In this document: positions 23,305 through 51,848 of the stretch, piece by piece
How the letters are laid out: every line of letters begins with the position of its first letter
Numbering within the stretch: the first letter of the stretch is position 1
NCBI GenBank assembly: GCA_016744375.1
Contig: JADGEM010000018.1
Span: 1-64,000, forward strand
Origin: Gammaproteobacteria bacterium
GTDB taxonomy: Bacteria; Pseudomonadota; Gammaproteobacteria; GRL18
Length of the DNA: 64,000 nt
Direction: 5' to 3'
Program-made: the position numbers and the translations under genes
The notes under the pieces: generated by a model
What the model saw: the letters and a program-made list of their open reading frames with translations, nothing else
What the model was told of the DNA's origin: nothing
Database searches by the model: none

Positions 23305-23351
23305 AGAATAACGGGCACAGCAGTATTTAATGAAAGAGAAAAGAGGTTTTC

Positions 23352-24181: not shown

Positions 24182-24763
24182 ATCATCTTAACACCCCCTA
24201 ATACAACAATAATACTGGGCATCGACCCTGGATCATTGAAAACAGGCTATGGTCTCATAGAATCCTCAGGGAACCGACTTCGTTTTTTAGAATGTGGTAC
24301 CATCAAAACTGGCGGCGGCCCATTACCTCCCCGATTAAAAATAATTTTCAATGATATTCGTCAGGTTGTGCAGCACTGGTCACCTGATGAAATGGCAATA
24401 GAGAATGTTTTTCTGGCACGCAACCCCGATTCAGCGTTAAAATTAGGGCAGGCCAGAGGTGCAGCAATTTGTGCGGTGATGACGGATGATATTCCGGTGG
24501 CAGAATACACAGCAAACCAGGTTAAGCAAGCGATTGTCGGAAAAGGTCATGCGGCAAAAACCCAGGTTCAGCACATGATTAAAATTCTACTGAATTTAAA
24601 TGAAACACCCCAGTCGGATGCAGCCGATGCACTGGCAATCGCCCTTTGTCATGCCAATACTAGAAAGACAATGACTGAGCTAAAAAGCAAAGCCAGTGAA
24701 CGGTACCCTGCAGAAGTACTAAAATCAATTCGTGGCCGAAGAAAAAAACGTTTTAAAATGTAA
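24182..24763 (+). CDS. ruvC: Holliday junction resolvase RuvC, non-canonical start
   Basis: Endonuclease that resolves four-way junctions with RuvAB. Residues needed for catalysis are present: Asp in LGIDPGS (codon at 24224), Glu in MAIENVFLA, and the Asp pair in SDAADALAIAL. The frame contains no ATG, GTG or TTG between the in-frame stop at 24170 and the LGIDPGS motif. The first standard start is TTG at 24236, after the catalytic Asp, and would give a dead enzyme. AAGGAAAG at 24171-24178 is a good ribosome binding site for a start at ATC 24182 or 24185, or less likely CTG 24179. The start given is a best guess. Directly upstream of ruvAB. Confidence 0.8.
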   Translation: MILTPPNTTIILGIDPGSLKTGYGLIESSGNRLRFLECGTIKTGGGPLPPRLKIIFNDIRQVVQHWSPDEMAIENVFLARNPDSALKLGQARGAAICAVMTDDIPVAEYTANQVKQAIVGKGHAAKTQVQHMIKILLNLNETPQSDAADALAIALCHANTRKTMTELKSKASERYPAEVLKSIRGRRKKRFKM

Positions 24764-24796
24764 AACACTTACATACAAGCACAACTACAGGTTCTT

Positions 24797-25411
24797 ATGA
24801 TTGGACGATTGTCAGGTATTCTGATACAAAAACAACCCCCCTTATTGATGATTGATGTACATGGTGTCGGCTACGAAGTTCAAGCTCCCATGAGTACTTT
24901 TTACAATTTACCAGAACTGGATAAATCCGTTGTTCTGTTGACTCACATGGTGGTTCGCGAAGATGCACAATTATTGTATGGATTTTATTGTGAGTCTGAA
25001 CGCCGATTATTTAAAAGTCTGATTAAAGTGAATGGTGTCGGGCCCAAATTAGCTTTAACCATTTTATCGGGTATTAGTGCGGATGAATTTGTCCAGGTGG
25101 TTAAAAATAATGATGAAAGTGGCCTGATTCGTTTGCCTGGAATCGGTAAGAAAACGGCTCAGCGGTTGATTGTAGAAATGAAAGATCGCCTGGATGACTG
25201 GCAAGGGGAAGATGAGGCAGGGCTGGACAAAACCACGACTGCATCAGATAATTTAATTTCCGGACAGGATATTATAAAAGAGGCGACCAGTGCTTTAATT
25301 GCATTAGGCTATAAACCCGTTGAAGCCAGTAAAATGATCAGTAAACTCGATAAACAGAATCAAAGCAGCGAATCCTTAATTAAACAAGCTTTGAAAAACA
25401 CCGTCAGATAA
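24797..25411 (+). CDS. ruvA: Holliday junction DNA helicase subunit RuvA
   Basis: 204 aa tetrameric junction-binding protein. The N-terminal OB-fold begins MIGRLSGILIQKQPP. Helix-hairpin-helix motifs LIKVNGVGPKLALTILSG and LIRLPGIGKKTAQRLIVEMKDRL contact the DNA. The flexible linker and C-terminal domain III (about 155-204) bind RuvB. Lies 33 bases after ruvC and 17 bases before ruvB. Confidence 0.95.
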   Translation: MIGRLSGILIQKQPPLLMIDVHGVGYEVQAPMSTFYNLPELDKSVVLLTHMVVREDAQLLYGFYCESERRLFKSLIKVNGVGPKLALTILSGISADEFVQVVKNNDESGLIRLPGIGKKTAQRLIVEMKDRLDDWQGEDEAGLDKTTTASDNLISGQDIIKEATSALIALGYKPVEASKMISKLDKQNQSSESLIKQALKNTVR

Positions 25412-25428
25412 CCTAAACCAGGCTTCTT

Positions 25429-26427
25429 ATGTTAGAGAATGAACGCATCATTTCAGCAATTGAAATACAGAATGAGGAGCAGTCCGATCGCGCTATTCGT
25501 CCAAAAACTCTGAAAGATTATGTCGGTCAGCCTTCTGTGTGTGAGCAGATGGAGATCTTTATTCCAGCTGCCAGAAACCGAAATGAAGCATTAGATCATG
25601 TGCTTATTTTTGGTCCCCCGGGTCTGGGCAAAACCACTCTATCTCACATTATTGCCAATGAAATGAGCGTTAATTTGCGCCAAACTTCAGGACCCGTACT
25701 TGAGCGTCCAGGTGACCTTGCCGCTTTGCTGACCAATCTCGAAGAAGGTGATGTCTTATTTATTGATGAAATTCATCGTTTGAGTGCTGTGGTTGAAGAA
25801 GTCTTATACCCGGCAATGGAAGACAACCAGCTTGATATTATGATTGGTGAAGGCCCGGCTGCCCGCTCAATTAAACTGGATTTACCCCCTTTTACCCTCA
25901 TTGGTGCAACCACAAGAGCCGGCTTATTAACGTCACCTCTGCGTGATCGTTTCGGCATTGTGCAAAGACTGGAATTTTATTCTATTGTTGATTTAACTCA
26001 TATTGTCAGTCGTTCAGCAAAAATTATGAATATACAGATTGATCCTCATGGCGCCAGTGAAATTGCCAAACGTTCCCGAGGTACGCCTCGGATCGCCAAC
26101 CGTCTTTTGAGACGTGTCCGGGATTATGCTGAAATAAAGGGGGATGGACTTGTTAATGTGGATATTGCCGATCGTGCTTTAAATATGCTGGAAGTTGATC
26201 CAATGGGCTTTGATATGATGGATCGTAAATTAATGTTGAGCATCATTGAAAAATTTGATGGTGGCCCTGTAGGCGTTGATAATCTGGCAGCGGCAATCAG
26301 TGAAGAAAAAGGGACGATTGAAGATGTTCTGGAACCTTTTTTAATCCAACAGGGGTATATCATGCGGACACCTCGGGGACGGGTTGCAACAGATATGGCT
26401 TATTTACACTTTGGCTTGCAACGATAG
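25429..26427 (+). CDS. ruvB: Holliday junction branch-migration ATPase RuvB
   Basis: 332 aa hexameric AAA+ motor. Walker [11 protein letters not shown], Walker [11 protein letters not shown], sensor [10 protein letters not shown] and arginine finger region PLRDRFGI are intact. The C-terminal winged helix includes [17 protein letters not shown]. It drives branch migration with RuvA. The product is of usual length. It ends the ruv operon, 123 bases before ybgC. Confidence 0.96.
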
Positions 26428-33299: not shown

Positions 33300-34643
33300 C
33301 TATGAAAATAATTTTTTCATAACCCAGTTCTTATCCGCCGCATGTATGCTATTAATAATTTCTTCTGAGTCAATATCATAGGAACCCAGGGGAATGCTAT
33401 TGATAATTTTAGGACAAACACCTTTATCTCTACTTAACTTTGAAAGATCAAGAATTTTTAATGTACTAATCTTTTTTTTCTGTGAGTCCCGGAGGATCAT
33501 GACTTTTGGCATCAGCCGGTGATGTTCATTTTGTTCGACAATAACTGCAATTTCTTTTGAATTTAATTCAATTAGAGATCCTGCTGGATAGATTCCTATT
33601 GACTGAATAAATTCTTCAACCAGTTCGGTCTGGAATTTAGTGTTTCTAAGCTGATAGAGATGCTCCATCGCTCTGGTTGCATCCAGAGAATACTTGCTGT
33701 CGCGCTGATTTGTAATCTTTTCGTAGTAGCAGACAATTCCAGCAATTTGTGCTGGAAAAATAATTTGCTCTCCAGTTAATTTTTTTGGATACCCCGAACC
33801 ATCAAATCGTTCACAGTGTGCTGCAACTGTTTCAATGGTCCCTTTAGAAAACAGGCTCATTTTTTTTAATAAGTTGACAGAAATGTTTATGTGCTTTCGA
33901 TAAACGGAGCGTTCTGCGCCTTCCAGATTTTCTGATTTTTCCAGTAGTTGTCTGGGTAAACGGGCTTTACCTATATTCGCCAGCAAAACGGCAATAGAAA
34001 GCTCAGTTAAGTCGGTTTTTGGTAATGAAAGGTGGCGCCCAAAGGCAATGGCCCATATAGTGGCTCGGATGGAGCGATTGTGAGTATGTGTATCCTTGGC
34101 TTTAAGTCGAGAAAGCCATAAGAAGGCATCAGGATTACGAATAATACTCTCAACCATTGCCCCTGCAGTTGTTTTGACTTGTTTGATGTCAAACTCATGA
34201 CCTGAAGCGATCTGCTCTAATACTTTTTCAGCATTTTGAGTGATGCTTTCATAAAGTTTATTCGCTGTTTTAAATTCTTTTTCAAATGGTGTTCGTTCAG
34301 TATACAGAGATTGATCACGTTTGAGCTGTATTCTACTTTGAACGTGATTATGCTCCTTGCTGGAGTAAATGGTTTGTTCATCTACGCTGGATTGGATGTT
34401 GAGTCCTTGTGTGCTTCCAGAAGAAATATTTTCGAGATGGCTTATGTCAACACGCAGCTTGGTTAAATCAACATCAATATAGACAAATTGGCAAAGAGAG
34501 GATAGTTTCTGGATGTCTTTTTGGTCTTGAATATAAAAACCTTCGATGGGGTAAGATGTTTTGATCCAGGGCACATCCAACTTTGAGATATACATTCCCA
34601 GAGCCAGGTTTTTAACATCTATCTGTTTACTATTGACGGCCAT
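33300..34643 (-). CDS. DUF3391/HD-GYP-domain protein with degenerate metal site
   Basis: 447 aa. The N-terminal DUF3391 domain (MAVNSKQIDVKNLALGMYISKLDVPW, residues 1-90) and the HD-GYP domain (about 170-380) are typical of c-di-GMP phosphodiesterases. Catalytic positions are altered. The first metal His is Arg190 (HNRSIR where active enzymes have a THS- or NHS-type motif). The HD pair is Ala222-Asn223 (LLANIGKARLP instead of LLHDIGK). HHE has become HCE (AHCERFDGSGYP). The later Asp of DVYDAL is replaced (VCYYEKI). GYP itself (284-286) is intact. The protein probably does not hydrolyse c-di-GMP but may bind it or partner proteins. Divergent from the receiver-cyclase gene at 35127. Confidence 0.85.
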   Translation of the reverse strand: MAVNSKQIDVKNLALGMYISKLDVPWIKTSYPIEGFYIQDQKDIQKLSSLCQFVYIDVDLTKLRVDISHLENISSGSTQGLNIQSSVDEQTIYSSKEHNHVQSRIQLKRDQSLYTERTPFEKEFKTANKLYESITQNAEKVLEQIASGHEFDIKQVKTTAGAMVESIIRNPDAFLWLSRLKAKDTHTHNRSIRATIWAIAFGRHLSLPKTDLTELSIAVLLANIGKARLPRQLLEKSENLEGAERSVYRKHINISVNLLKKMSLFSKGTIETVAAHCERFDGSGYPKKLTGEQIIFPAQIAGIVCYYEKITNQRDSKYSLDATRAMEHLYQLRNTKFQTELVEEFIQSIGIYPAGSLIELNSKEIAVIVEQNEHHRLMPKVMILRDSQKKKISTLKILDLSKLSRDKGVCPKIINSIPLGSYDIDSEEIINSIHAADKNWVMKKLFS

Positions 34644-35126: not shown

Positions 35127-36998
35127 ATGGATAATCATATAATAAATGCCGTTTTATTAACGGACTCATCAACAATTGATGGTTTGATTTCATCTTTACT
35201 GGATAGTGACCGTTTCAAAATCAAAGCCATCCACTCAAGTGAAGATGACTATTTCCAGAAAATTCTTGATTGTCATCCAGATCTTATCTTTATCAGAGCC
35301 ATGCTTTCAAATATGGATGGACTCTCTGTGTGTGATCGAATTCGTTCACATCCCTCACTCAGCCAGGCTCGTCTGATCTTTATTTCATCAAATACTGTTA
35401 ATCGAGAGCATGCGATTGATCATCGAGCCAATAAATTTCTGCAGTTACCCTTTTCGCGCCAGGACTTGAACCAGGTTATCAGCCCTTTATTTGAGCAAAA
35501 CACACAACTATTACTGGTTGATGACAGTAAAACCTGCCGAAGATTAATTAAACCTTTTCTGGAACAGGAAGGCTATGATGTTATTGAAGCTGATAATGGT
35601 GAACAGGCATTAAAGCTCATTCGCAGTAAAAAAGTTGATGTAATTGTCAGTGATGTTGAAATGCCCGTTCTGGATGGTATTACATTATGCCGAATTATTC
35701 GTCAGCAGGATCATCTGTCAACTCCTGTTTTATTATTGTCTTCACAACAAACTGATAAGGCTATTCTGAGTGGCTTCAGTGCGGGTGCAGATGATTACAT
35801 TATTAAATCTGATCATTCTGCAACTCGTAAAGTTGTTGTACCTGAACTTCTTTCACGTATTGAACGTTTATTGATCAGCAGAAATTCACAAGGTCGCCCG
35901 GAACGGATTTTAGTGGTAGAAGACTCTGCAACGATGCTCTATCAGCTCAAAAACTCATTGAAAATTCAGGGGTTTCAGGTGGATATTGCTGAAGATGGAC
36001 AGTCCGCCTGGAAAAAATTAAATATCAATCAATATGATCTTGTGATTACTGATTATGATATGCCTTATGTTGACGGGTTGGAATTATGTACTCGAATACG
36101 TCAGTCTAATCGATTTGAAAATCTGCCAATTATCATCGAAACCAGTAAAGATTCTAAAGCTGATCAAGTAAAAATCCGTTCCATTGGTATTCAGGCCTTT
36201 ATTACCAAACCTTTTTCACCAGATAGAATGATTGCTGAAGTGGAGCGGGTGCTGGCTGAGACCCGTTTAAAGCACAACCAAAATGCCATGAGCCAGTATT
36301 TGCCTGACTCAACTGTGACGCATATTTCTGATAAGAATAAGAATGGCAACGGGCCCATTGCAGAAGATAAATTCAGAACCTTATTATTTTTAGACATTGT
36401 ACAATTTACCCACATGTCGAGTCATCTGGCTTCAAGAGATGTGGTTGTTTTTCTAAATGCTTTTTTTGACCGAATGGTTGAAGAATTAATGCATTTTGAT
36501 GCGACAATTGAAAAGTTTATCGGAGATGGTATTTTTGCCTCATTTGACTTGCAGGAAGAAGGGGCCTTTCGCTCAGTCTGTGCCGCTGCTGCGATGCTGA
36601 AAGCATTACCAGAATTGCGAAAAATGACAGGGCTTGATGTCCATATACGTATTGGAATTCATTCTGGGCATGTGATTTCAGGTGATATCGGCAGTCGCCA
36701 TTCAAGAAGAGATTTCACCCTGATTGGGGAAAACGTCAATATTGCTGCACGTTTGGAACATTTAGCTAAGCATGATGGAATATTGATCAGTCATGCAACG
36801 TATAAAATGATTAAAGAGCGCATCACTGTGATTCCCACGCCGCCCTTAAAATTAAAAGGCATCAAAGAGCCTGTTCAGGCCTATCTGGTTAAATCCATAA
36901 AATCTTATCATTCATTTTCTCGACAAATGGAGCAGAAATCATTATCGGGAAAACAAAGTAAAAATTCCATTGAAAAAGTGTTTAATTCTCACTTTTAG
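35127..36998 (+). CDS. Triple-receiver class III adenylate/guanylate cyclase
   Basis: 623 aa cytoplasmic signalling protein. Receiver 1 (about 5-122) has Arg57 in place of the phospho-acceptor Asp (LIFIRAMLSNMDG), so it is a pseudo-receiver. Receiver 2 (127-250) has Asp176 (IVSDVEMP) and receiver 3 (260-380) Asp309 (VITDYDMP). The class III cyclase domain (415-590) has both metal Asp residues (Asp423 in FLDIVQFT, Asp467 in FIGDGIF), purine-specifying Lys463 and a Thr in DFTLIGENVNIAARLE. This combination usually indicates ATP and cAMP. The transition-state Asn and Arg are also present. It should make cAMP under control of one or two phosphorelays. A start codon is clear, but the ribosome binding site is weak. 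Confidence 0.88.
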   Translation: MDNHIINAVLLTDSSTIDGLISSLLDSDRFKIKAIHSSEDDYFQKILDCHPDLIFIRAMLSNMDGLSVCDRIRSHPSLSQARLIFISSNTVNREHAIDHRANKFLQLPFSRQDLNQVISPLFEQNTQLLLVDDSKTCRRLIKPFLEQEGYDVIEADNGEQALKLIRSKKVDVIVSDVEMPVLDGITLCRIIRQQDHLSTPVLLLSSQQTDKAILSGFSAGADDYIIKSDHSATRKVVVPELLSRIERLLISRNSQGRPERILVVEDSATMLYQLKNSLKIQGFQVDIAEDGQSAWKKLNINQYDLVITDYDMPYVDGLELCTRIRQSNRFENLPIIIETSKDSKADQVKIRSIGIQAFITKPFSPDRMIAEVERVLAETRLKHNQNAMSQYLPDSTVTHISDKNKNGNGPIAEDKFRTLLFLDIVQFTHMSSHLASRDVVVFLNAFFDRMVEELMHFDATIEKFIGDGIFASFDLQEEGAFRSVCAAAAMLKALPELRKMTGLDVHIRIGIHSGHVISGDIGSRHSRRDFTLIGENVNIAARLEHLAKHDGILISHATYKMIKERITVIPTPPLKLKGIKEPVQAYLVKSIKSYHSFSRQMEQKSLSGKQSKNSIEKVFNSHF

Positions 36999-38105: not shown

Positions 38106-39617
38106 TTATTCTAATAAATCTATCCAGCTTGCACTGGCACCTTTGGTCACGTCAAGAATGATATCAGGAAAAATTCCAAATATAATAATGAGCAGTCCAA
38201 AAGCAATGGCAAGTAGTAATTCCCGTGTTCGCAAATCCATTGCCGTAATGATCACATCATTTTTCACAGGTCCTAAAAATGCTCGTTGATAAATAGTTAG
38301 AAAGTAAGCAGCCGCAAGAACGATTCCGATCAAAGCTGCAATTCCAGCACCCGTATGGGTTTCAAGGACACTGATAAGAATTAAATTTTCAGCAATAAAA
38401 CCATTGGTTCCCGGTACCCCTAAACCTGCGAGGCCAAAGATAAAGAAAAAACTAGCCAGTAAAGGCATTGTTTTTGCAACACCTCCTAAACTTAATAATT
38501 CAGTTGAACCGGTGCGATGATGTAGAAAGCCGATAAGAATAAAAAGACCACCAGCGACCAGAGTAAAATTAAATAACTGAAATAAAGCACCTTGAAGCCC
38601 CTGAGTTGAGAATGATGCGATCCCCAAAATGACCAGACCCACATGGCTGACACTAGAAAAGGCAAGCATTTTACGTAAGTTTGTTTGACTGATTGCAAGT
38701 ACTGCCCCATACAGAACGCCCATAATCCCAAGCCCGGCTAATAACCAATGAAAATTTTGAGCCGCATCTGGTGCTAAGGGGACAGTAAATCTGATCAGAC
38801 CGTAAGCCCCTAGTTTTAGTCCTGTCATAATTGCTGCAATACTTGCAGGTCCTTCCATTGCAATGGCGGGCAGCCAGGTATGTAAAGGAAAAATGGGCGC
38901 TTTAAAAGCAAATCCCAATAAAAGTAGAAAGAAAATAGTGGTTTGAAGCTCTACCGGTAATGGATTATTTAATAGATTTATGTAGTCAAATACCAGTTCA
39001 CCAGAAGCTACTTTTGCATGTTCAAAGGCCGCAAGAATAAAACCAAAGAGTAGAGGGACGCCGCCTGCCATCATAACCATCGTATATTTCACTGCAGCAT
39101 AGCGCCTGTTGGGACCGATCCCCCAGTAAATAATCAGGAAATAAATAGGGATTAATGTCAGCTCCCAAAATAAGAAAAAGAGGATTGTATTGAGTGAAAT
39201 AAAAATGCCGAGCGTTGCTGTTTGTAATAGCAGCAGTAAAATAAAAAATAAACGTGGCATGGTTCGAATACTATTCCAGGAAGCAATAATTATCCCCATA
39301 AATAATAAACTGGTTAGTGGTAAAAAAAGGATTGATATGCCGTCAATGCCAACAATATAATCAATGTTAAGGCTGGGAATCCAGGGTAAACGTTCAACAA
39401 ATTGGAAGCCTGAATTGGTTTTATCAAACTGAAAAACAAGTATCAGAGAGAGCAGCAGCGTAATTATGTTTGCGATTAATGCAATCCAACGTGCCTTTAA
39501 ATGATCAGAAGTCAATAAAATAATTGCAGATGCAATAGGCAATATAATTAATAACAGACTGAGAATAGGAAATCCTATTGCTGATTCAACGTTTGCAAGA
39601 GTTGTTTCTGAAATCAT
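38106..39617 (-). CDS. NuoM/MrpD-like antiporter subunit, last gene of the dab locus
   Basis: 503 aa polytopic membrane protein of the complex I subunit 4 family, about 14 helices. Proton-channel residues are all present: Glu of helix 5 (FWELTLIPIYFLI), Lys of helix 7 (FKAPIFPLHTWLPA), Lys of helix 8 (GLKLGAYGLIRF) and Glu of helix 12 (GTNGFIAENLIL). By family it should conduct protons (or Na+) as part of a larger complex. It lies in a minus-strand run with dabA, dabB and two further NuoM-like genes. No core complex I gene (NuoBCDEFGHIAJK) is present in the window, so this is not a nuo operon. Confidence 0.85.
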   Translation of the reverse strand: MISETTLANVESAIGFPILSLLLIILPIASAIILLTSDHLKARWIALIANIITLLLSLILVFQFDKTNSGFQFVERLPWIPSLNIDYIVGIDGISILFLPLTSLLFMGIIIASWNSIRTMPRLFFILLLLLQTATLGIFISLNTILFFLFWELTLIPIYFLIIYWGIGPNRRYAAVKYTMVMMAGGVPLLFGFILAAFEHAKVASGELVFDYINLLNNPLPVELQTTIFFLLLLGFAFKAPIFPLHTWLPAIAMEGPASIAAIMTGLKLGAYGLIRFTVPLAPDAAQNFHWLLAGLGIMGVLYGAVLAISQTNLRKMLAFSSVSHVGLVILGIASFSTQGLQGALFQLFNFTLVAGGLFILIGFLHHRTGSTELLSLGGVAKTMPLLASFFFIFGLAGLGVPGTNGFIAENLILISVLETHTGAGIAALIGIVLAAAYFLTIYQRAFLGPVKNDVIITAMDLRTRELLLAIAFGLLIIIFGIFPDIILDVTKGASASWIDLLE

Positions 39618-39676
39618 CAGAAAATCCTTAAAGTATTTATATTATGTAATGTGACGTAAAAGGTTTTGCTATAAGC

Positions 39677-41194
39677 CTAATGAAGATGACTGTATAATTC
39701 ACCCAGCCCATGCATGGAATTTTCAATTAAGCCAAGCCATGGTTCTGTATAAAATCCGGTGGTTAATAAAGTAATAATAATCATTGCCGCCAGGACTTCT
39801 TCTGAGCGTGATGCCGGGGCAATAGCCTTCTGATGCCAGCTGCCGATTTTGGGGGATAAAAATGCTCTTTGGAAGGCCCAGAGTAAAAATCCTGCAGCCA
39901 CAACGTTACCCAGTGCAGCGGCGATAGTAATGAGTGCACCAAAGCGATGAATTGAGGCTTCAAGTATTAAATGTGCGGCATCAAATCCAGGCGTGCCGGG
40001 CATACCCACAATACTGAGGCCGGAGATTAAAAAGGTGATGCCGATAAAGGGAATATGGTCAAATAGCCCGCCCAGTTTTTTTAATAACATTGTGTTTGTA
40101 CGCCAGAATACAAAACCCGTCATAAATAACAGCCCAGAGGTTGCCAGACCAAAATTAATTGACAGTAATATGGCTCCTTCAAAGGCAGTTTGATTCAGGC
40201 TGAACAAGCCGATAATAAGGACGCTGGTATGGCTGACAACTGCAAATGAAAGTAGTCTGCGCAGATTTGCCTGCATCATCGCCATGACTGCAGCATAAAA
40301 AACACCAGCTACTGCAAAAGTGACAACATATTCATGCCATTGAATGACTGCTTCCGGCAGGAGCGGTAAAACAAAACGTATTAAAGCATAGATGCCCACC
40401 TTTAACCCCAGCAGCAAAACCAGAGCCATAGCGACTGTGCCATGCTCTGCCGTAAGCGGCAGCCAGCCATGTAGAGGAAAAATAGGAATGCGAATACCAA
40501 GACCATAGAATAGTAGAAAAAAGATGATGGACTGGATATTTTCATCCACAGCAACGTCTTTAAGGAGCATGAGGTCAAAGGTCCAGGCGCTTCCTGTTTC
40601 ATGGGTATAGTTCCAGCCCAGCATTGAAACGCCTACGGCAAGAAGAAAAAGACCGGAGAGCATGAACTGCAGATAACGGGCTATAGCCAGATCGCGTTCA
40701 GGTGAAGTGGCCCAGCGGCGTAACATATAACCAATTAAAGACAGCTCAATAAAAGATATCAGGGTAAACCACATCAGGTCGAGAGTGGTAAATAAGCTCA
40801 TCAGGCAGGCTTCAATAATTAAAATCGTAAAAGGCAGGTGCTTTGGTCGTTCAAGTGGAATAATACTGCAATAGATCATGACCATAATACTTAACAGGGC
40901 TGTGAGGAGCATAAATAAAACACTCATGCCATCAACGGCGGTATGATATGAAAGTGGTGAGAGCAAAGTGAGTTGCTCTGAGAACTGCATTGCTGAATTT
41001 GTCTGATCAAAATGTCTGAATAAATCAACAGCAAAAAACATTTCCAAAACAGTCAGGGCAATACCAACATTCATTAAGTGTTTTGAATTGCGGAAGCCGT
41101 ATAAAACAAAGAGTCCTAATAACGGGATGATCTGCAAGGTGCTTAATATGGGATAGGCTGACTGAGAAGCCCAATGAATTTCAGTAATAGTCAC
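39677..41194 (-). CDS. Divergent NuoM/MrpD-like antiporter subunit
   Basis: 505 aa, same fold as its neighbour. Helix 5 Glu is kept (SFIELSLIGYML) and helix 8 Lys is kept (GLKVGIYALIRF). The helix 7 Lys is Arg (GIRIPIFPLHGWLPL), and the helix 12 Glu is lost (GFDAAHLILEASI). The longer gaps and substitutions suggest a channel with altered proton path, perhaps with a structural role in the carbon pump. Starts 10 bases after dabB and ends 59 bases before the next gene, so all are probably in one transcript. Confidence 0.82.
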   Translation of the reverse strand: MTITEIHWASQSAYPILSTLQIIPLLGLFVLYGFRNSKHLMNVGIALTVLEMFFAVDLFRHFDQTNSAMQFSEQLTLLSPLSYHTAVDGMSVLFMLLTALLSIMVMIYCSIIPLERPKHLPFTILIIEACLMSLFTTLDLMWFTLISFIELSLIGYMLRRWATSPERDLAIARYLQFMLSGLFLLAVGVSMLGWNYTHETGSAWTFDLMLLKDVAVDENIQSIIFFLLFYGLGIRIPIFPLHGWLPLTAEHGTVAMALVLLLGLKVGIYALIRFVLPLLPEAVIQWHEYVVTFAVAGVFYAAVMAMMQANLRRLLSFAVVSHTSVLIIGLFSLNQTAFEGAILLSINFGLATSGLLFMTGFVFWRTNTMLLKKLGGLFDHIPFIGITFLISGLSIVGMPGTPGFDAAHLILEASIHRFGALITIAAALGNVVAAGFLLWAFQRAFLSPKIGSWHQKAIAPASRSEEVLAAMIIITLLTTGFYTEPWLGLIENSMHGLGELYSHLH

Positions 41195-41204
41195 TTGCCT
41201 CTCC

Positions 41205-42785
41205 CTAAATGATGACTACAAAGGTAGTCAGGATTAGTAATATTAAATAACGTGGCTGGCTGAGTAGCTCTTCAATCTGGAGCAGGTAATGCCCCACCAC
41301 ATTAAGCAATTTAAGCAGACCATCACCACCACTTTTGAGAACCAGATGCTCTTCAAACCAGAAGAGCATGTCAGCCAGATTTTCAAGAATTTTTCCAGCA
41401 ATACCATGACCCCGACTGATTTCATACTTCTCTGCCGCACTCATTTCAGAAGCAGATTTATGCATTTCCCAATCGGCAATGGAAGTGATGGCACTGGTTT
41501 GTTCTGGCAAACCTACCAAGCGATTAATCACTTTTTCATCAAAGCGTTCGGTGTCGTGGGCAATGCTTTTAATGGGTTTGACTAAAAGCCAGTCTGCTAT
41601 TGGATCAAGCCAGAAACGCTGTAAGCTTGCTGTGTATAACCAGCCCTGTTTTTTTAATAAGGGATGGATGGGGCGTGTTTTGCGATCCATCATGTGCATC
41701 ATGGCTGGCGCATGTAAAAATTGATAAGCTCGCCAGATTGAATGTAATACCAGATGCCAGCTGGCTAATTCAAACCAGCCCATGCCGCAACTAAAAAACA
41801 TCAGACCCACCTGTGATGTGGTGGAAAAAATCAAATTACTTTTTACGTCGGTTTGCACCAGGTTACAGAAAAATCCATATGCGACTGTGAGTAAACCAAT
41901 CATGGTCATAGTGGTCATAATAATTGGGGCATTATCCAGGACAGGTTGCAGGCGAATGATGAGATAAACGCCGGCATGAACCATGAGAGAACCATAAAAG
42001 ATGGCACTTGATGGTGTCGGCCCTTCTAATGCGCGAGATATCCACGGAGCAAAAGGCACTTGAGCTGATTTTGCAATAGCCGCAAGGAGAAAACTGGCCG
42101 CCAGGATATTGCTGCCCAATGGACTTAATGAATTGGCATCGCTGAGAATTTCATTCCACTCCAATGTCTTGAGCAGATGAAATGAAAGAAATATCGCAAT
42201 GATAAAGCCGACATCACCAATACGATTGGTAATAAAAACCCGTGTGGCATTTTTAGTTGCAATCGGGCGATCATAAACATAAGCGATGAGCAGATAGGAG
42301 CTGACACCTGCCAGCTCCCAGCCGGTAAACATCAGAACCAGATTGCCAGCCATTACAATGAGCAGCATAGCTCCCATAAACAGGCTCATAATCATGAAAA
42401 ATCGCTGATAGCCTGCTTCACGGTGCATATAATTGACGGAAAAACGAATCATCAGAACAGAAATAACCGCTACCAGAGTCATCATGACTAAAGCAAAAGT
42501 ATCCAGGTTAAAACTTAAGGTGATTTGATAATCACCACTGCTGAACCATTGTGCCAGTTCCAGGTGGCCTGGAATGCCAATAACGATGGCATGTAAATCA
42601 ACAGCAAGGACAATTAATAAAGACAGCAGAGCTGTGCCATTGGCAATTAAGGTGGTTTGTTTTTCACCGGACTCACCTCGATTTTTACCGCTGATAAAAC
42701 CAATCGCAATGGCTAAAGCACCCAGCATGGGTAAAAAAGGAATTAACCAGACAAACGCTTTGAGTATTGAGTTTGCTTCGTTCAT
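41205..42785 (-). CDS. dabB: DabB-type inorganic carbon transporter subunit (NuoL-like)
   Basis: 526 aa membrane partner of DabA, related to complex I subunit 5 (NuoL). Helix 5 Glu (FTGWELAGVSSYLLIAY), Lys of helix 7 (KSAQVPFAPWISRALEGPTP) and a His at the helix 8 position (MVHAGVYLIIRLQP) are visible. The start ATG overlaps the dabA stop by 4 bases (ATGA), meaning tight coupling. DabAB couples a cation gradient to one-way hydration of CO2 to bicarbonate in the cytoplasm, raising the inorganic carbon pool for Rubisco. Confidence 0.88.
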   Translation of the reverse strand: MNEANSILKAFVWLIPFLPMLGALAIAIGFISGKNRGESGEKQTTLIANGTALLSLLIVLAVDLHAIVIGIPGHLELAQWFSSGDYQITLSFNLDTFALVMMTLVAVISVLMIRFSVNYMHREAGYQRFFMIMSLFMGAMLLIVMAGNLVLMFTGWELAGVSSYLLIAYVYDRPIATKNATRVFITNRIGDVGFIIAIFLSFHLLKTLEWNEILSDANSLSPLGSNILAASFLLAAIAKSAQVPFAPWISRALEGPTPSSAIFYGSLMVHAGVYLIIRLQPVLDNAPIIMTTMTMIGLLTVAYGFFCNLVQTDVKSNLIFSTTSQVGLMFFSCGMGWFELASWHLVLHSIWRAYQFLHAPAMMHMMDRKTRPIHPLLKKQGWLYTASLQRFWLDPIADWLLVKPIKSIAHDTERFDEKVINRLVGLPEQTSAITSIADWEMHKSASEMSAAEKYEISRGHGIAGKILENLADMLFWFEEHLVLKSGGDGLLKLLNVVGHYLLQIEELLSQPRYLILLILTTFVVII

Positions 42786-45700
42786 TGGTTTTCTCCCTTG
42801 GTCTGTTCTGTCTGACGCCCGCGAATGTTATCACCTTCAGGCTGGCTGATTAATGCCAGACTTAAGGCATTGCTATGGCCGGCATACCATTGGGAAGAGG
42901 CTTTTACTTCAGGTGTTTTCTCCTGTTTGCCTGTCCACGGGACAAAACCTTTATCGGGTTTAAACTGGGTGATTTTATCACTGTCCGGATCTTTGGCCGT
43001 GAGTAAAATCCAGCCTTTACCAATAAGTTCTTGCAGGGCTGGTTGGGCTGTATAGATTTTAGTCAACACTTCGATGCTGTGTTCAACGACAATTTGTAAA
43101 CGCATGGCTTCATGAATTTCAATCATCTGTTTGGGCAGGCCAGTTCTTAAATCACCACTGCTGCCATCCATAACACCGAACAAGCCATTGACATTGTGGG
43201 TAATTTTAGAGCCGCTCCCATAGCGTTCATTATCCACCGTTGAAAAGTAATACTCCAGGCTGATACCGGCACCCACAGGGCCATTGGCCAGAAGCAGTCC
43301 TTCGAGAAGATTTCCCTCTGGATCAGTGCTGGGATCATAGGAGATTAAAAAGATACGGCGGTCAAAAAAGGCTCCCTGTGTAGCACTGCGGCGCCCAATA
43401 AAACAGATTGCGTTGGTGGCATGGCCTAATTCGGGACGGGCCTGACTGAAGTCATAGGAACGACCAATAATATGTTTAAGCGCCTTTTCTTTAGGGGTAT
43501 TTTGTGGATTTGGGGCTGAGGCCAGACGGCGGCAGCGTTCATGAGCTGACCATTGACTGGCTTCATAAGTATCTGATTTCATTTTTTCAAATGAATTTTT
43601 CAATTTGTCAGGAATTTGATCGGTATCATACCAGGTGAATTTTTCATCACAAGTATTGTGCTCAGCTCCTAAAAACCAGGTGTCTTTAGTAATATCGAGA
43701 CCACGTTGTTTTAATAAGACACGAATTTCAGGTCGATTAGCAATGGTGGCAAAGGTTCGGGCATTTGGGCCGCTATGGCGACCGCTGCAGGCACCACAAT
43801 CATAAGCGGCCAGATGAGGATTATTCTGGCTGATAGAACCATGGCCAACAATGACAATAAAAGGGGAAAAGCCACTAGCCAGACCAATATTGCGGAGAAA
43901 GCCTTCAATTCTGTCGACCTGCTCTAAGTCGGTAAAACCAATTTGCTCATCTCCAGGTTTTGGTTCTTCTTTTTCATGCTGGCAATTAACGGACACTTCT
44001 GTAGCAATGCTTAAATCAAATTTATCCCGTAATGACTCGGCCAGTTCACCCGTTTGCCTGGGAATAAAGACTTTTCCAATCAGGGTCACTAGTGCCGCAG
44101 GTGCTGACAGTGCAATAAGGGCTGCTGTGCTTAATAAATTACGGCGTGTTTCCTGTTGGATGAGTGCTTTAGTCTGTAAACGCCAGTGGCGCTTTTTCTT
44201 GTGTTTAGCCAGCAATTTATCCTGCCCTTGATGGGCAACTTCCTGGAACTCATAACAGGGTACTGTGACCACAGGACACAAGGGCGAAGCCTTATCTTCA
44301 TCCAGACCTTGCCAGTTAATATGCATACCAAAATGAGCCGCAGCACCGAGTGTTTCGATATTAGGATTTAATTCTTCCAGATGGCGGCGAATACCTTCCT
44401 CTCGATCATCCATGCAGAAAACCAGCTGTGCATCCGGCAGTTCTTTACGCTCTTTCCAGCGTCCTCGTCCTTCATTATCAACCAGTGTATTGAAATAAAT
44501 CTCATGGTAGTGATGCTCATAGGCCTGTAGCCAGATAAAACCACTGGTGTCTTCATCCATCTGATTGATTAAAGTAAATATTTCATCAATCTGTGTTTGT
44601 TCTAATGCGCTGATATCCTGGGCAGTAAAACCAATATACTGAAACAGACGAAACAGAGGCCAGGCATGTTTGCTGACACGATAACCCGGTGTTTTGGTAC
44701 CCACTGGACTTTGTTGCCAGGTCCAGATCATGTTAGCCAGTTTTAGCCAGTTATCTTCATTGGAATGGTTGGTTTTAGAGCGTTCAATCTGATGGCTTGA
44801 AAGAGTGGATAAATATTCAGGCAGGCGCTCATTATGGAGCGTGTAGCGAACCAGAAAATCAGAGCTGCGATGACGAAAATAATATCGAAGTGTTTCTAAA
44901 CTGGCTTCTGTACGCCAATATTCACTACAGACTCTTTGCGCAAAAATACGTTCTAATACCAGACGTACAGCCAGATAGTCCAACATATTAACTGGTGTAG
45001 TCAGACCATCATAGCCGGGTTTTGTATGCCGCCAAAGGAACATTCCTGACCAGCCGGGTAACTCCAGTGCAAGACGTTCAAGATAAGCTGTCCAGCGGTT
45101 TTTATTGATTCCCTGACGCTGCAGTTCCTGAACAATGGTGTCCATGGGATCATCGGACAGAGCATCCAGATTATCACTCCAGTCATCCAGCTCTTCAAAT
45201 ATCCAGGCCAGATCTTCATGAGCACTTTGTCTCCAGAAAGCATAAAAGCCCTGTTCCTGAAAGTTGTGATTCCAGGCTGCCATGCCCTGATCTAAATAAG
45301 AAGCCAGGTAACGTAATAGAACTGGCCGGATATCATCCATTAAGTCAACACCTGTGAGGGCTTTAATGAAACCACTGAGTGTATTTTTTTGTCCGATACT
45401 ATCCAGAAGGTTGCTCAGGAGCTTTTTAGATTCCTTTTGTACCTGCTTATGAATATGAGAACGGCCGGCATCTTTTTTATTGCTGCCTTTGACCTGTTGG
45501 TTGAGCATTTCTTCAGCACGATCTGGTGATATATCAATCATATCTTCTGGATGCAACAATAGATGATCCAGCTTTAGGGCTTTTAAAATGCTCTGCCAGA
45601 GTTCTGAAATAACAACTTCTTCTTTTTGCTCGGAACGGCTTATCAATGCCTGACATTGCTCCTGAGTCAAATCATTCTGACAGGATTTCAGAGCTTGAAG

Positions 45701-46174
45701 TTCTTCAATCTGCCAGGTTAACTGGCAGTTGGTGACAGGTTTTAGCGAATAAAGCAAAGTACTGAAGATGATGTCTTTATGACTGATACTCTGGTCATTA
45801 TGTGAATAAATGATTTTATCCAGCTCCAGGTTACTCTGTTCTGCAAGGACATTTTCCAGGTCTTTAAGGGTAATTCGGCCCTGAGAAAAATATTGGCGAA
45901 ATTGCTCATTACTGAGATAACCTTTGGCACCTGTGGTTGCTTTAGATTGAGCCAGAGCCTCAGGAAAGGCCAGATGTTGATAACCGTGGAGAGTATTGTG
46001 ATGGACAAAATCTTTGATAGAGGCCTGTGCTGGCAGGACATGCTCAAGATGCTCAATTAAATGCAGTATCTGATCACGCATGTCATCCATATTGCCTGTT
46101 TTGCCATGGCTGTTCTGGATTGAATTACTTTGAACTGAGCTTTGAGTCGCAGAAGTTTGGCTAGAATCTGGCAT
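42782..46174 (-). CDS. dabA: DabA-type inorganic carbon transporter subunit (DUF2309)
   Basis: 1130 aa, at the long end of the family. DabA is a cytoplasmic, beta-carbonic-anhydrase-like zinc protein. The four expected zinc ligands are visible: Cys587 and Asp589 (LVFCMDDREEGIRRH), His778 (IVGHGSISQNNPH) and Cys793 (YDCGACSGRHSGPN). The His-to-Cys spacing of 15 matches Halothiobacillus DabA. The N-terminal part has the conserved LPAQASIKDFVHHNTLHGYQ. The C-terminal third carries GRSYDFSQARPELGHATN and LLANGPVGAGISLEYYFSTVD. Extra length is mostly in the N-terminal 550 residues. Forms an overlapping pair with dabB and is preceded by an NuoM-like gene 15 bases upstream. Confidence 0.93.
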   Translation of the reverse strand: MPDSSQTSATQSSVQSNSIQNSHGKTGNMDDMRDQILHLIEHLEHVLPAQASIKDFVHHNTLHGYQHLAFPEALAQSKATTGAKGYLSNEQFRQYFSQGRITLKDLENVLAEQSNLELDKIIYSHNDQSISHKDIIFSTLLYSLKPVTNCQLTWQIEELQALKSCQNDLTQEQCQALISRSEQKEEVVISELWQSILKALKLDHLLLHPEDMIDISPDRAEEMLNQQVKGSNKKDAGRSHIHKQVQKESKKLLSNLLDSIGQKNTLSGFIKALTGVDLMDDIRPVLLRYLASYLDQGMAAWNHNFQEQGFYAFWRQSAHEDLAWIFEELDDWSDNLDALSDDPMDTIVQELQRQGINKNRWTAYLERLALELPGWSGMFLWRHTKPGYDGLTTPVNMLDYLAVRLVLERIFAQRVCSEYWRTEASLETLRYYFRHRSSDFLVRYTLHNERLPEYLSTLSSHQIERSKTNHSNEDNWLKLANMIWTWQQSPVGTKTPGYRVSKHAWPLFRLFQYIGFTAQDISALEQTQIDEIFTLINQMDEDTSGFIWLQAYEHHYHEIYFNTLVDNEGRGRWKERKELPDAQLVFCMDDREEGIRRHLEELNPNIETLGAAAHFGMHINWQGLDEDKASPLCPVVTVPCYEFQEVAHQGQDKLLAKHKKKRHWRLQTKALIQQETRRNLLSTAALIALSAPAALVTLIGKVFIPRQTGELAESLRDKFDLSIATEVSVNCQHEKEEPKPGDEQIGFTDLEQVDRIEGFLRNIGLASGFSPFIVIVGHGSISQNNPHLAAYDCGACSGRHSGPNARTFATIANRPEIRVLLKQRGLDITKDTWFLGAEHNTCDEKFTWYDTDQIPDKLKNSFEKMKSDTYEASQWSAHERCRRLASAPNPQNTPKEKALKHIIGRSYDFSQARPELGHATNAICFIGRRSATQGAFFDRRIFLISYDPSTDPEGNLLEGLLLANGPVGAGISLEYYFSTVDNERYGSGSKITHNVNGLFGVMDGSSGDLRTGLPKQMIEIHEAMRLQIVVEHSIEVLTKIYTAQPALQELIGKGWILLTAKDPDSDKITQFKPDKGFVPWTGKQEKTPEVKASSQWYAGHSNALSLALISQPEGDNIRGRQTEQTKGENQ

Positions 46175-46189
46175 TTTGAATAAACTCCC

Positions 46190-47653
46190 TTATTTTAAGC
46201 TCGTAAATAGTTGACTAAAATTATTAGCTGAAGCACCCATTAAATCCAGAGTGAATCCTGGGAAAAAACCAAGATATAAAAATCCAAATACCAGAATACT
46301 GGCGGCAAATAACTCAACTGGTTTTAAATCACTGATACCATCCATATTCCCGTGGCTGGGACCGGTAAATAAACGTCCCATGGTTCGGGCCGCATAGGCT
46401 GCACTGATCATTACACCAATGCTCACCAGTATGACGGTCCAGCCCCACTGTTCAAAAGCGCCGATAATGATATGAAGTTCAGCAATAAAACCTGCTGTAC
46501 CGGGCATGCCTACGGCCGCAAGAAAGGCTAAAGAGGTAAACACTGCAAATCGAGGGGTTATCTTAACCAGAGAACTATAATCGGTGATTTCCCGGGTGTG
46601 AGTGCGCTCATACAACAGACCGATGAGTAAAAATAAAGCGCCCGCCACCAGACCATGGGCGACCATTTGCATCAGGGCACCGGTGATACCTGAAATATTT
46701 AATGCTGCAATGCCTAATAATACAACGCCCATATGACTGATGGAAGAATAAGCAATCATGCCCTTTAAATCCGATTGCCGCCAGGCTAATAAGCCTCCGT
46801 AAATCAGACTGAATAGTGCTAAAACCATCAAAAATGTCTGTAAGGATAAAACGGCTTCAGGCAGCATAAATGCGGTACGGATGAGACCGTAAGCGCCCAT
46901 TTTTAATAAAATACCAGAGAGTAATATACTGACAGGACTAGGTGCTTCAACATGAGCCAGAGGTAACCAGCCATGTATAGGGAAAATGGGCATTTTGACC
47001 CCGAAACCGACTAAAAACCCAAGAAAGATCAAAACCTGTGTTTGTTCTGGTAGTGCCCGGGCACCTTCGAGCATAGCATCCATGGCAAATGAGTGGCCGG
47101 GTGTGGCATCAAATAAAACCAGCAGACTTAACAGCATAAAAACAGAGCCGCCCATGGTATAGAGGACAAAGTTAAGTGAAGCCATGCTGCGGCGTTTGCC
47201 ACCCCAGCGATCAATCAGAAAAAATAACGGGATAAGAGTAAATTCCCAGAAAACATAAAACAGTGACCAGTCCTGAGCCATGAAAACACCCAGCATGGCA
47301 CTTTCAAGCAGCAGCATGAGTAGATAATAGCCTTTGGTTCGTTCGGTGATGCTCTGGGAAGCGATAATGGCAATAAAACATAATAAAGTGGCCAGTAAAA
47401 CCATAGGAAATGAAATACCATCAATGCCCAGAGCAAAAGAAGTACCCATTCGAGTATTCCAGGGGACAATTTTACTAAATTGAAGGGCACTGCTATTGGT
47501 ATCGAAGGCAAAAATAAAGCTGATGGCATAAAGAAGAGTTATAGAGGCAAATGCTATGGCTGCTGTTCGAATCAAGGTTGATTGACTTGGCAATATGCTG
47601 ATGATTATTGCGCCAATGACCGGTAGCAATAATAATAATGTTAGACTATGCAT
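46190..47653 (-). CDS. NuoM/NdhD-like antiporter subunit, first gene of the dab locus
   Basis: 487 aa complex I subunit 4 homologue. Helix 5 Glu (FWEFTLIPLFFL), helix 7 Lys (VKMPIFPIHGWLPLAH), helix 8 Lys (LLKMGAYGLIRTA) and helix 12 Glu (GTAGFIAELHIII) are all intact. It looks like a competent proton-translocating subunit. It begins the minus-strand operon; the promoter should lie in the 242 bases shared with the divergent parE. Those bases contain TCTGGAATATTA (47709-47720) and TCTGGAATAATG (47767-47778), a possible repeated operator. Confidence 0.86.
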   Translation of the reverse strand: MHSLTLLLLLPVIGAIIISILPSQSTLIRTAAIAFASITLLYAISFIFAFDTNSSALQFSKIVPWNTRMGTSFALGIDGISFPMVLLATLLCFIAIIASQSITERTKGYYLLMLLLESAMLGVFMAQDWSLFYVFWEFTLIPLFFLIDRWGGKRRSMASLNFVLYTMGGSVFMLLSLLVLFDATPGHSFAMDAMLEGARALPEQTQVLIFLGFLVGFGVKMPIFPIHGWLPLAHVEAPSPVSILLSGILLKMGAYGLIRTAFMLPEAVLSLQTFLMVLALFSLIYGGLLAWRQSDLKGMIAYSSISHMGVVLLGIAALNISGITGALMQMVAHGLVAGALFLLIGLLYERTHTREITDYSSLVKITPRFAVFTSLAFLAAVGMPGTAGFIAELHIIIGAFEQWGWTVILVSIGVMISAAYAARTMGRLFTGPSHGNMDGISDLKPVELFAASILVFGFLYLGFFPGFTLDLMGASANNFSQLFTSLK

Positions 47654-47895
47654 GAATTCATTCTTTAGTAAAATGTTTTAGTAAAAAACAGGGCTTTGCA
47701 AAAATAGGTCTGGAATATTATTGCCAGAATAAATTTGCCAGTAAGACATAGCAAGATATAGAAATTTCTGGAATAATGGCGACAGATTATACGTTAAATA
47801 GTGATTTTAAGCCAATTCGGTTTTGATTCGTTTTTAATAAAAAAAACACAATTAATGATACTACTACAGACAAATAAGTAAGGTAAAAGAAATAA

Positions 47896-50232: not shown

Positions 50233-50478
50233 ATGTTGGTTTCACTCATTCAAATTCTTAATAATATCGTGGCAGAAGGTAAACGCCAAGGACTGACTCA
50301 AAAAGAAATCTGTCAGAAAGCGGGTGTGTCTGAAATAACGATTTCAAGAGCGAAAAAGCAGGGGGATATTCGTTTTTCTACACTGGAAAAGTTGGCAAAA
50401 TGTGTGGGGATGCAGTTAACAACCAGTGCTGACACACCTTTAATGACGCTCATTAACGATGGCGAGTTGTTTCAATGA
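50233..50478 (+). CDS. hipB: XRE-family antitoxin, HipB-like
   Basis: 81 aa single-domain DNA-binding protein with a helix-turn-helix at about 20-45 (LTQKEICQKAGVSEITISRAKKQ) and a following segment typical of XRE repressors. The frame overlaps the start of the kinase toxin gene by 4 bases (ATGA), the classic order for hipBA. It is predicted to bind the upstream TATC/GATA palindromes and to neutralise HipA. Confidence 0.8.
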   Translation: MLVSLIQILNNIVAEGKRQGLTQKEICQKAGVSEITISRAKKQGDIRFSTLEKLAKCVGMQLTTSADTPLMTLINDGELFQ

Positions 50479-51848
50479 GGGACCGCCACGCTGTAGTCTG
50501 GACTCGAATATCAGGAGAACCTGTTAAAATGGGCGAGCTCTATACGACAGAGCTTGAATCTCGTTTTGTCTATGATGAATCCTTTATTTCATTAAAGTTA
50601 CCTGGTCTGGGGTTAATTTTGTCCCCTGAGATTTTTGGTCTGAGCACCTTAAAGTGGACACGGACAGAACGCTTTGACTTTCCACCTCCACTGCAATCCT
50701 TGATCCCCCCTGCAGATGAGCATAATTTCCAACGCCATCTTATTATGAATTATCTTGAAACTTCAGGCGTGAAACGAGCTACTGATTTAGAAAATGACTG
50801 GAACATACTGACACTAAGTGGCCATGGTGGAATAGGGCATCTGGACACGTTTGCCTCAGATGAAAAAGCGATTGCCTGGTACTCGACACCCGCTTTGCCA
50901 CAAAAAGAACTGCTGGCCAGAGATACGACACTGGGCTTTTCCTTGAAAAATATGCTGACCTGGTTTGATGATGAAACAGGCAATCTGCTTGATTTTATTG
51001 GTCCGACCCCGAGTGTGGGTGGTGCGATACCTAAATTACTGCTATCCATTCCTAAAGCTGGTTGGAATGGTACAGTAGGTTTGCCAACCCGTTTTGGTAA
51101 TACTCAGTATACGGATGTGATTTTAAAGCTGGAGAAAGATACGGCTTACCCGGGCATATCAGAGCTGGAAGCCTTAGGATTGGATATTCATAAAAAGGCA
51201 GGGTTTGAAACGCCACGGTACTGGCTTACGGAATTTAATGGCATTCATGCCATTGCCATTGAACGCTTTGATAGAGATGAAAAGTGTATTCCTGTTTTCC
51301 AGGAAAGTATTTTTTCTGTTCTTGCTTCAGGCAATAGAGAGATTCAGAGTCATTATGATTCAAGCTATGACCAGATCGGACGTATGTTTGATAATCCTCG
51401 TATTGTCTTGATTGATGATCGCCGTGCTGCAAAAAAACATTTGCTAAAGCGACTATTGCTCTCTTTTTTAACCGGTAATGGTGATCTGCACTTGGAAAAT
51501 CTGAGCATTCAAATAAGAAAAGGAGTCAGTGATTTTTCACCAATTTATGATCCTGTACCGATGCGAGCGTATAGTATTCACAATATGTTGAACGTCATGC
51601 CGTTTGGTGACTATGGGGATTATATTGATGATCAGAATGATCCCGTTGATTTTACTCTGGCTTTGCAACGATTTAATCAATCCTTAGGTTTTGATCGCAA
51701 TTTATTAACGGAAATAATCAATGAATTGTTAATGGTAACCGATGATTTTTGTGAACAAGTGAATCAATTATCACGCTTGCCTGAAGAAAATAAAAAAAAT
51801 CTAATTCAGATCCATAAAAAGATCAGAGCGTTGTTGTCCGTTTTCTAA
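50475..51848 (+). CDS. hipA: HipA-type serine/threonine kinase toxin
   Basis: 457 aa. Recognisable HipA elements: substrate/phosphate loop GGAIPK (182-187), ATP-binding Lys218 (VILKLEKD), ERFDR (264-268), catalytic loop FLTGNGDLHLENLS with Asp337 and Asn342, and metal-binding Asp359 (SPIYDPVP). All residues needed for kinase activity appear intact. E. coli HipA phosphorylates GltX, inhibits translation and causes persistence; targets of this divergent member are unknown. It lies between parE and parC, an unusual site. It is followed by a broken in-frame ORF. Confidence 0.85.
   Translation: MRDRHAVVWTRISGEPVKMGELYTTELESRFVYDESFISLKLPGLGLILSPEIFGLSTLKWTRTERFDFPPPLQSLIPPADEHNFQRHLIMNYLETSGVKRATDLENDWNILTLSGHGGIGHLDTFASDEKAIAWYSTPALPQKELLARDTTLGFSLKNMLTWFDDETGNLLDFIGPTPSVGGAIPKLLLSIPKAGWNGTVGLPTRFGNTQYTDVILKLEKDTAYPGISELEALGLDIHKKAGFETPRYWLTEFNGIHAIAIERFDRDEKCIPVFQESIFSVLASGNREIQSHYDSSYDQIGRMFDNPRIVLIDDRRAAKKHLLKRLLLSFLTGNGDLHLENLSIQIRKGVSDFSPIYDPVPMRAYSIHNMLNVMPFGDYGDYIDDQNDPVDFTLALQRFNQSLGFDRNLLTEIINELLMVTDDFCEQVNQLSRLPEENKKNLIQIHKKIRALLSVF

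Follow-up and report, generated by a model that had tools for sequence, protein, structure and literature searches.

A five-gene relative of the DAB inorganic carbon pumps in which energy coupling has probably moved to separate NuoM-type subunits

The window analyzed here comprises 64,000 nucleotides (positions 1 to 64,000 of contig JADGEM010000018.1, our contig C78) of the Gammaproteobacteria bacterium assembly GCA_016744375.1, a genome of 4.29 Mb in 137 contigs that is 94.7 % complete. It carries a minus-strand run of five open reading frames (ORFs) related to the DAB inorganic carbon pumps, which we name in the order of transcription M1 (46190-47653), DabA (42782-46174), DabB (41205-42785), M2 (39677-41194, GTG start) and M3 (38106-39617) and which are separated by 15, -4, 10 and 59 bases. 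DabA (1130 residues), the only copy in this genome, is a beta-carbonic-anhydrase-like protein of family PF10070 (779.5 bits), while the other four proteins belong to the Pfam family Proton_antipo_M. M1 (487 residues), M2 (505 residues) and M3 (503 residues) each exceed the cut-off of the NuoM subfamily TIGR01972 (NCBIfam); DabB (526 residues) is NuoL-like, yet stays below the NuoL cut-offs of NCBIfam. An earlier note, made from the sequence alone, had described precisely such a run, with spacings of -4 to 59 bases and three NuoM-like genes flanking dabA and dabB.

The residues that form the proton path of complex I antiporter subunits are distributed unevenly among these proteins, much as the earlier note had listed them. 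M1 (E137, K220, K251, E392) and M3 (E152, K239, K268, E410) possess the full set, whereas the middle protein M2 has R235 in place of the helix-7 Lys, retains K265 and shows A407-H408 instead of the helix-12 Glu. The zinc site of DabA, also reported there, is intact (C587, H778 and C793, accompanied by D589 and R591). DabB starts with a NuoL-like half of 11 transmembrane (TM) helices (TM1-11), continues with helices of low hydrophobicity and ends with its last hydrophobic segment at residues 508-526; E157, K239 and H270 are present, and Y264 and R352 stand where the characterized pump DAB2 has His260 and Lys347.

None of the quinone/NADH core subunits of complex I was detected among the five ORFs and the four flanking proteins scanned. 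The earlier statement that no other complex I subunits are present is correct for the run itself, but not for the genome, in which nuoL, nuoM, nuoN and nuoH reside on a separate contig (C31). Mrp antiporters are encoded by MrpA-G operons including small subunits; the run studied here consists of five genes only and the scanned flanking proteins are unrelated. Apart from nuo, contig C75 of the same genome contains a NuoH-like gene beside two antiporter-like genes (21695-25670). This set looks like a membrane complex of the hydrogenase or formate hydrogenlyase type and not like Mrp, because of the NuoH-like neighbor and because the antiporter-like pair matches NCBIfam models only below their cut-offs.

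In order to assess the spread of the cassette, an M2 profile was run against the contigs of one genome per species (84,980 species) and the best 80 loci were taken. The three NuoM-like genes accompany dabA and dabB in 58 of these 80 loci, where order and strand are conserved for all five, and another 19 are collinear up to a contig end; only L163, L187 and L208 deviate. All five genes show low ratios of nonsynonymous to synonymous substitution rates (dN/dS of 0.03-0.16 in four comparisons with relatives), which together with the recurrent order argues against a chance arrangement. The nearest relatives among the matches listed are gammaproteobacterial metagenome-assembled genomes, including Bathyaustriella and Taylorina symbionts and a Thiohalomonas species. 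Further hosts among these matches are Ca. Thiodiazotropha, endosymbionts of Escarpia and Lamellibrachia, a Solemya symbiont, Ca. Venteria, Sulfuricella, Thiobacillus, Accumulibacter and Magnetococcales, which we take to comprise tubeworm and clam symbionts and other sulfur oxidizers. A Nitrospirota record (L171) is also found among the cassette loci. The 'Aquificaceae' locus L187 is doubtful as evidence that this phylum has the system: with a Leucothrix record it shares 85-88 % identity in M1, DabB and M2, and the genome is therefore likely to be wrongly binned.

M2 and DabA are inherited together. When 299 genomes were drawn across the phylum, M2-like matches (E < 1e-120) occurred in 35, the window genome included. 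Drawing across the class yielded M2 (E up to 1e-100) in 13 and DabA in 59 of 232 genomes; these counts come from two draws of equal size and settings that we take to be the same 232 genomes. All 13 genomes with M2 contain DabA, compared with 46 of the 219 others (Fisher p 6e-9, kinship ignored). In genome G107 (contig C62, 8116-12768), an M2 gene with one in-frame TAA adjoins dabB and an incomplete dabA; the stop may reflect gene decay or an error in sequencing.

Where the cluster is broken up, its parts tend to be kept. All five were located in five of six such genomes (G086, G203, G090, G541 and G542). In G086 and G203, which belong to one genus, dabA adjoins an ORF of 1045 residues in which DabB is fused to M2, the M2 half bearing the residue signature of M2, and M1 and M3 are encoded elsewhere. 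In G090, dabA is separate from an M1-DabB-M2-M3 cluster, in G541 (the genome of L187) it lies on a different contig, and in G542, to which L208 belongs, the five cassette genes are spread over four contigs. Retention of the parts when scattered, together with the fusion, is the best indication that the five proteins function jointly and that M2 is located next to DabB.

Between G541 and its near relative L179, identity is only 38 % for DabA but 85-88 % for DabB, M1 and M2. The closest counterparts of the G541 DabA are the lone DabA of G090 (48 %) and an additional DabA in reverse orientation next to the L198 cassette (55 %). The G541 protein is thus foreign to the cassette type, and in G090 and G541 a divergent DabA seems to have replaced the lost cassette DabA, possibly amounting to an enzyme swap on a constant membrane arm. 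Members of this divergent subfamily were seen at L198 (1-2699, minus strand), L214 (6867-10232, minus strand) and L086 (7508-10738, plus strand).

M1, M2 and M3 are three old lineages distinct from NuoM, as judged from a tree of 90 sequences. Each of them occupies one side of a branch, with support of 100, 100 and 96, respectively, in the Shimodaira-Hasegawa-like approximate likelihood ratio test (SH-aLRT), the 13 NuoM sequences are set apart (92), and M2 and M3 are neighbors (95). The tree is a quick one without bootstraps and has long outgroup branches; 11 of the 13 NuoM originate from ten genomes with cassette parts. Tight clustering with a canonical nuo operon, which the earlier note had named as speaking against its proposal, was not seen. 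An origin of M1-M3 as recent copies from the host nuo operon was rejected, given the separate clades and only 24 to 37 % identity with the host NuoM.

The residue patterns seen in the window hold throughout these lineages. The Glu/Lys/Lys/Glu set is complete in 77/77 aligned M1 and 89/89 aligned M3 sequences, while M2 has the helix-7 Arg and the helix-8 Lys in 97/97, the helix-12 Glu in 0/97 and a His one position past the helix-12 column in 97/97; these totals include contigs present under two identifiers, the unique sequences numbering 70 for M1, 88 for M2 and 81 for M3. The helix-5 acidic position of M2 is variable, with Glu, Gln or His two positions beyond the aligned column (18 sequences). 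We also considered M2 as a decaying duplicate and rejected this idea, as the Arg, Lys and His are invariant and dN/dS amounts to 0.04-0.09 (four comparisons). M2 is about as constrained as the other cassette genes and for this reason appears to be a subunit with a chemistry of its own rather than a wreck.

A characterized relative is DAB2 from Halothiobacillus neapolitanus (DabA2-DabB2, PDB 9rd0; PMC13144422, which together with our alignment is the source of the DAB2 numbering). DabA and DabB of the window match its subunits with E values of 3e-65 and 1e-37, respectively, and DabA shares the zinc ligands and the Asp-Arg pair. Among cassette DabA proteins, Cys587, Asp589, Arg591 and His778 are found in 76/76 and Cys793 in 75/76, with one gap. 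Unlike the five-gene cassette, DAB2 consists of two subunits; its DabB2 has 15 TM helices, His260, Lys347 and an Ile at the position of the helix-5 Glu, and its DabA2 carries Glu444 (PMC13144422).

We compared DabB from 84 five-part and 28 two-part loci by alignment, some of the two-part ORFs being incomplete; L080, in which M1-DabA-DabB is followed by a contig end, was excluded from both classes and L068 was omitted because it repeats L096. The column of DAB2 His260 is Tyr in 84/84 five-part and His in 28/28 two-part sequences, that of Lys347 is Arg in 84/84 and Lys in 28/28, and that of Ile151 is Glu in 83/84 as opposed to 0/28. His270 (window numbering) is restricted to the five-part type (84/84 versus 0/28), while His242 of DAB2 is lost from it and conserved in the two-part type (28/28). 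Arg182, Asp185 and Lys235 of DAB2 are retained in five-part DabB, and His339 in 72/84. In DabA, the Glu444 column is acidic in 3/76 five-part and 38/38 two-part sequences; in the window it is occupied by A688, within a predicted finger hairpin formed by helices 652-675 and 680-703. The helix-5 Glu of NuoL belongs to an interface ion pair, and we infer that the NuoL-type Glu at DAB2 position 151 fits a DabB that contacts a neighboring subunit. In DAB2 itself, Glu introduced at 151 halves the growth yield, and activity is impaired when His260 or Lys347 is replaced by Ala and abolished when Glu444 is replaced by Ala or Gln (PMC13144422). With His260 and Lys347 each at 0/84 and Glu444 mostly lost, the DAB2 proton path can hardly work alike here, so that the locus encodes a DAB homologue and not a member of the DAB2 type. 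The complete NuoM-type channels of M1 and M3 would be the natural replacement.

DabB has also been rebuilt on a larger scale. By a crude hydropathy count, 77/82 five-part DabB have one hydrophobic segment past TM11 and 28/29 proteins labelled two-part have three to five, a label that in this count also covers L097, L074, L075 and L086, which are five-part loci with fused or dispersed genes. An AlphaFold model of DabB (mean predicted local distance difference test, pLDDT, of 80) shows TM1-11 followed by helices between residues 375-424 and 461-525; it matches NuoL-type chains in Foldseek (about 366 columns at 2.2 Å), and DabB also matches the NdhF tail weakly. The top Foldseek match for the DabA model is a beta-carbonic anhydrase (E 3.5e-3, probability 0.98); no match reached E < 0.001 and 9rd0 was not among the matches listed.

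That DabA and DabB nevertheless work alone as in DAB2, M1-M3 being accessory proteins for pH or ion homeostasis or for regulation, seems decidedly unlikely to us. The zinc site and predicted finger hairpin of DabA fit such an arrangement, as does the retention of the DAB2-path residues Lys310, His343 and Ser256 in five-part DabB. It is hard to reconcile with a DabB that has lost His260, Lys347 and most hydrophobic segments past TM11, with a DabA mostly devoid of Glu444, and with an M2 that never occurs without DabA among the 232 genomes drawn from the class and can be fused to DabB.

The occurrence of NuoM genes at DAB loci has been noted before. The COGNAT study of 2017 described a 'clade C' (DUF2309/ybcC-nuoL-nuoM) in which ybcC, i.e. 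dabA, precedes nuoL, often with NuoM and SulP-type neighbors, postulated a novel energy-converting complex and related the ions moved to how many membrane subunits there are (PMC5700660). In the passages considered, it gives no NuoM count, residue analysis, fusion or CO2 role; very probably, the neighborhood is the cassette discussed here, noted before the CO2 role became known. This was the only mention of DAB loci with NuoM genes that we found in the openly licensed literature, where we came across no description of the three NuoM subunits, the rebuilt DabB, the fusion or the carboxysome link addressed below. A 2024 toolkit review treats DACs without NuoM or NuoL in its main text. MpsAB and other two-gene DAC loci share homologues of DabA and DabB, but those examined lack NuoM subunits; MpsAB has been argued to use sodium (PMC13144422). 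The same source assigns a third small membrane protein to DAB1, so that the premise of the earlier note that the well-described pumps consist of DabA and DabB only is inexact for the known pumps as a whole. Extra NuoM-type subunits in a row are also a feature of Complex_I_3 in Manganitrophaceae, where the terminal subunit has a longer lateral helix thought to span the added ones; unlike the cassette, this is a complex I with a redox core, and DabA is not mentioned in the passages considered (PMC9040806).

In cyanobacteria, NdhD3, NdhF3 and CupA replace the tip of NDH-1 in the complexes NDH-1MS/MS', in which CO2 hydration is coupled to a complex with NuoL/NuoM-type subunits. The earlier note had drawn this comparison, adding that the NDH core is missing here. 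It holds as an analogy: NDH-1MS uses the NDH core and ferredoxin, and DabA is a PF10070 protein. As to the addition, NuoH is present in 29/29 genomes with M2, so a complex I core may take part, and DabA, DabB and the M proteins could conceivably replace NuoL and NuoM on a nuo core, with electron flow driving CO2 hydration. The NuoL-type helix-5 Glu and NdhF-tail match of DabB and the NuoM-like character of M1 and M3 are in line with such an alternative tip. The presence of NuoH says little, however, because NuoH is common and also occurs in 11/14 control genomes; moreover, nuo core genes were not observed in the cassette, the host also possesses canonical nuoL, nuoM and nuoN, and four membrane subunits exceed what a tip generally holds. 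We consider this explanation unlikely.

In the genomes compared, the five-part type goes along with the absence of carboxysomes. Shell genes (PF00936) were detected in 1/29 five-part genomes and in 20/22 two-part genomes, the latter being chosen as high-scoring DabA matches, some of them near carboxysome genes. The 29 comprise 27 with the cassette genes together (one match, G462), 14 of which were typed by M2 plus DabA (14/14) rather than by M1 and DabB one by one, and the dispersed G086 and G203 (no match). The contrast is significant for the 27 versus 22 genomes (Fisher p 2e-10, kinship ignored) and persists when counted by family (1/15 versus 18/20). RuBisCO was matched in 14/29 five-part and 20/22 two-part genomes; of the 15 five-part genomes without a match, 13 lie outside the class of the window and the other two are G086 and G203. 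A SulP-type transporter is encoded directly upstream on the same strand in 13/54 loci, seven of which are close Thiodiazotropha-type relatives; the family assignment was confirmed for two of the 13.

The lack of shell genes in 28/29 five-part genomes, the presence of RuBisCO in 14 of the 29 and the neighboring SulP genes would also suit a machine running in reverse, either as an ion pump or as a gradient-driven converter of bicarbonate, supplied by SulP, to CO2 for RuBisCO, and an exergonic ion-pumping role was indeed proposed for this type of operon in 2017 (PMC5700660). DAB2, equipped with the same zinc site, complements carbonic-anhydrase-deficient Escherichia coli and is inactive without membrane potential (PMC13144422), and 15/29 five-part genomes offer no RuBisCO match as a recipient of CO2. 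We hold this direction to be very unlikely.

Downstream of the cassette at L149, a minus-strand gene (13487-14608) gives a weak match to the catalytic domain of the carboxysomal carbonic anhydrase CsoSCA (23.1 bits, cut-off 21.5). Similar genes occur near L147, L152, L157, L165, L167 and L183; the domain scan covered L149.

Taken together, we think it moderately probable that the locus encodes one membrane complex, in which DabA is mounted on a rebuilt arm of four NuoL/NuoM-type proteins and protons pass through M1 and M3. These two have probably taken over the proton path from DabB and DabA, since they are intact, M2 is altered and the relevant residues of DabB and DabA are lost. DabA would hydrate CO2 at its Cys2His zinc site. 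DabB would serve as an adapter, its NuoL-like half having kept the residues for subunit contact and its own exit half-channel being lost, and M2, with its altered chemistry (Arg, His), would have a coupling or structural role. Protons would enter through M1 and M3, and their flow would be relayed along the row as in complex I to drive the conversion of CO2 to bicarbonate in one direction, possibly at about two protons per CO2. Such a machine would be of use to carboxysome-free bacteria, of which some have RuBisCO and others gave no match to it, and might hold bicarbonate in the cell or catch leaking CO2. More tentatively, the cassette may represent a separate class of carbonic anhydrase driven by the proton-motive force, a zinc enzyme without its own channel that is powered at a distance by two NuoM-type pumps through DabB and the altered M2 and that marks carboxysome-free bacteria. 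As to the earlier note, its observation is confirmed and was, if anything, understated, whereas its interpretation is supported in part: the enlarged DAB module stands, but the 'up to four channels' are not supported, as the residue set is complete in M1 and M3 alone, M2 being altered in 97/97 sequences and DabB lacking His260 and Lys347 in 84/84 as well as most hydrophobic segments past TM11.

Several points weigh against the one-complex reading. We know of no biochemistry on the five-part type. The structures of DabB and DabA were predicted singly, residues 425-455 and 510-526 of the DabB model mostly fall below a pLDDT of 50, and the hydropathy count gives only three segments past TM11 in the host NuoL. 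Because Lys310, His343 and Ser256 are kept, DabB may still conduct protons over part of the path. The finger of DabA contains an Asp in G144, G086 and G203 and also in L080, whose type is unsure. In G551, the genome of L163 and the sixth with a broken-up cluster, M2-M3 lie on a different contig from DabB, with DabA and M1 not searched for there. A vectorial CO2-hydrating enzyme is without obvious use for RuBisCO that lacks a carboxysome. Finally, the system is patchy: in the same genus, DabA occurs in 11/15 other genomes, seven of which have the whole stretch on one contig and share the gene order, and other genera of the family have it in 0/8 genomes. This patchiness extends even to close relatives, as G013 of the same genus, 99 % complete in ten contigs, is devoid of DabA.

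A possible promoter region precedes M1 (47654-47895, minus strand) and is shared with a divergent gyrB-type gene. It contains one sigma-70-like match (47815-47786), though promoter-like sites upstream of M1 are not above chance (20 versus a mean of 24.3 in shuffled sequences), and a scan for terminators at the locus returned no more than in shuffles. Genes near the cassette encode a response regulator with three receiver domains and a guanylate cyclase domain (35127-36998, plus strand) and an HD-domain protein with DUF3391 (33300-34643, minus strand); an ORF at 50475-51848 (plus strand) resembles a HipA-type kinase by eye. Elsewhere, extra antiporter-like genes that appear hydrogenase-4-like by eye adjoin the cassette at L204 (13357-18339) and L195 (10050-15122), the latter including a HyfC-like gene.

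The host appears to be a sulfur-oxidizing bacterium with an enlarged version of a two-protein CO2 uptake machine, probably a five-subunit DAB relative whose energy coupling has been transferred from DabB and DabA to separate NuoM-type subunits. The three additional proton-pump-like proteins accompany the machine across many bacteria of distant kinship. The DAB pumps can accordingly be divided in a testable manner into two mechanisms, each with its own marker residues, and this bears on carbon handling in tubeworm and clam symbionts and in other sulfur oxidizers. Work on complex I has yet to settle how antiporter-like subunits pass proton flow sideways to one another. A row of this kind appears here to be coupled to a simple hydration that involves no flavin, iron-sulfur clusters or quinone, and the coupling could therefore be studied alone. 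If this holds true, the cassette would represent long-range coupling in the style of complex I without any redox module.

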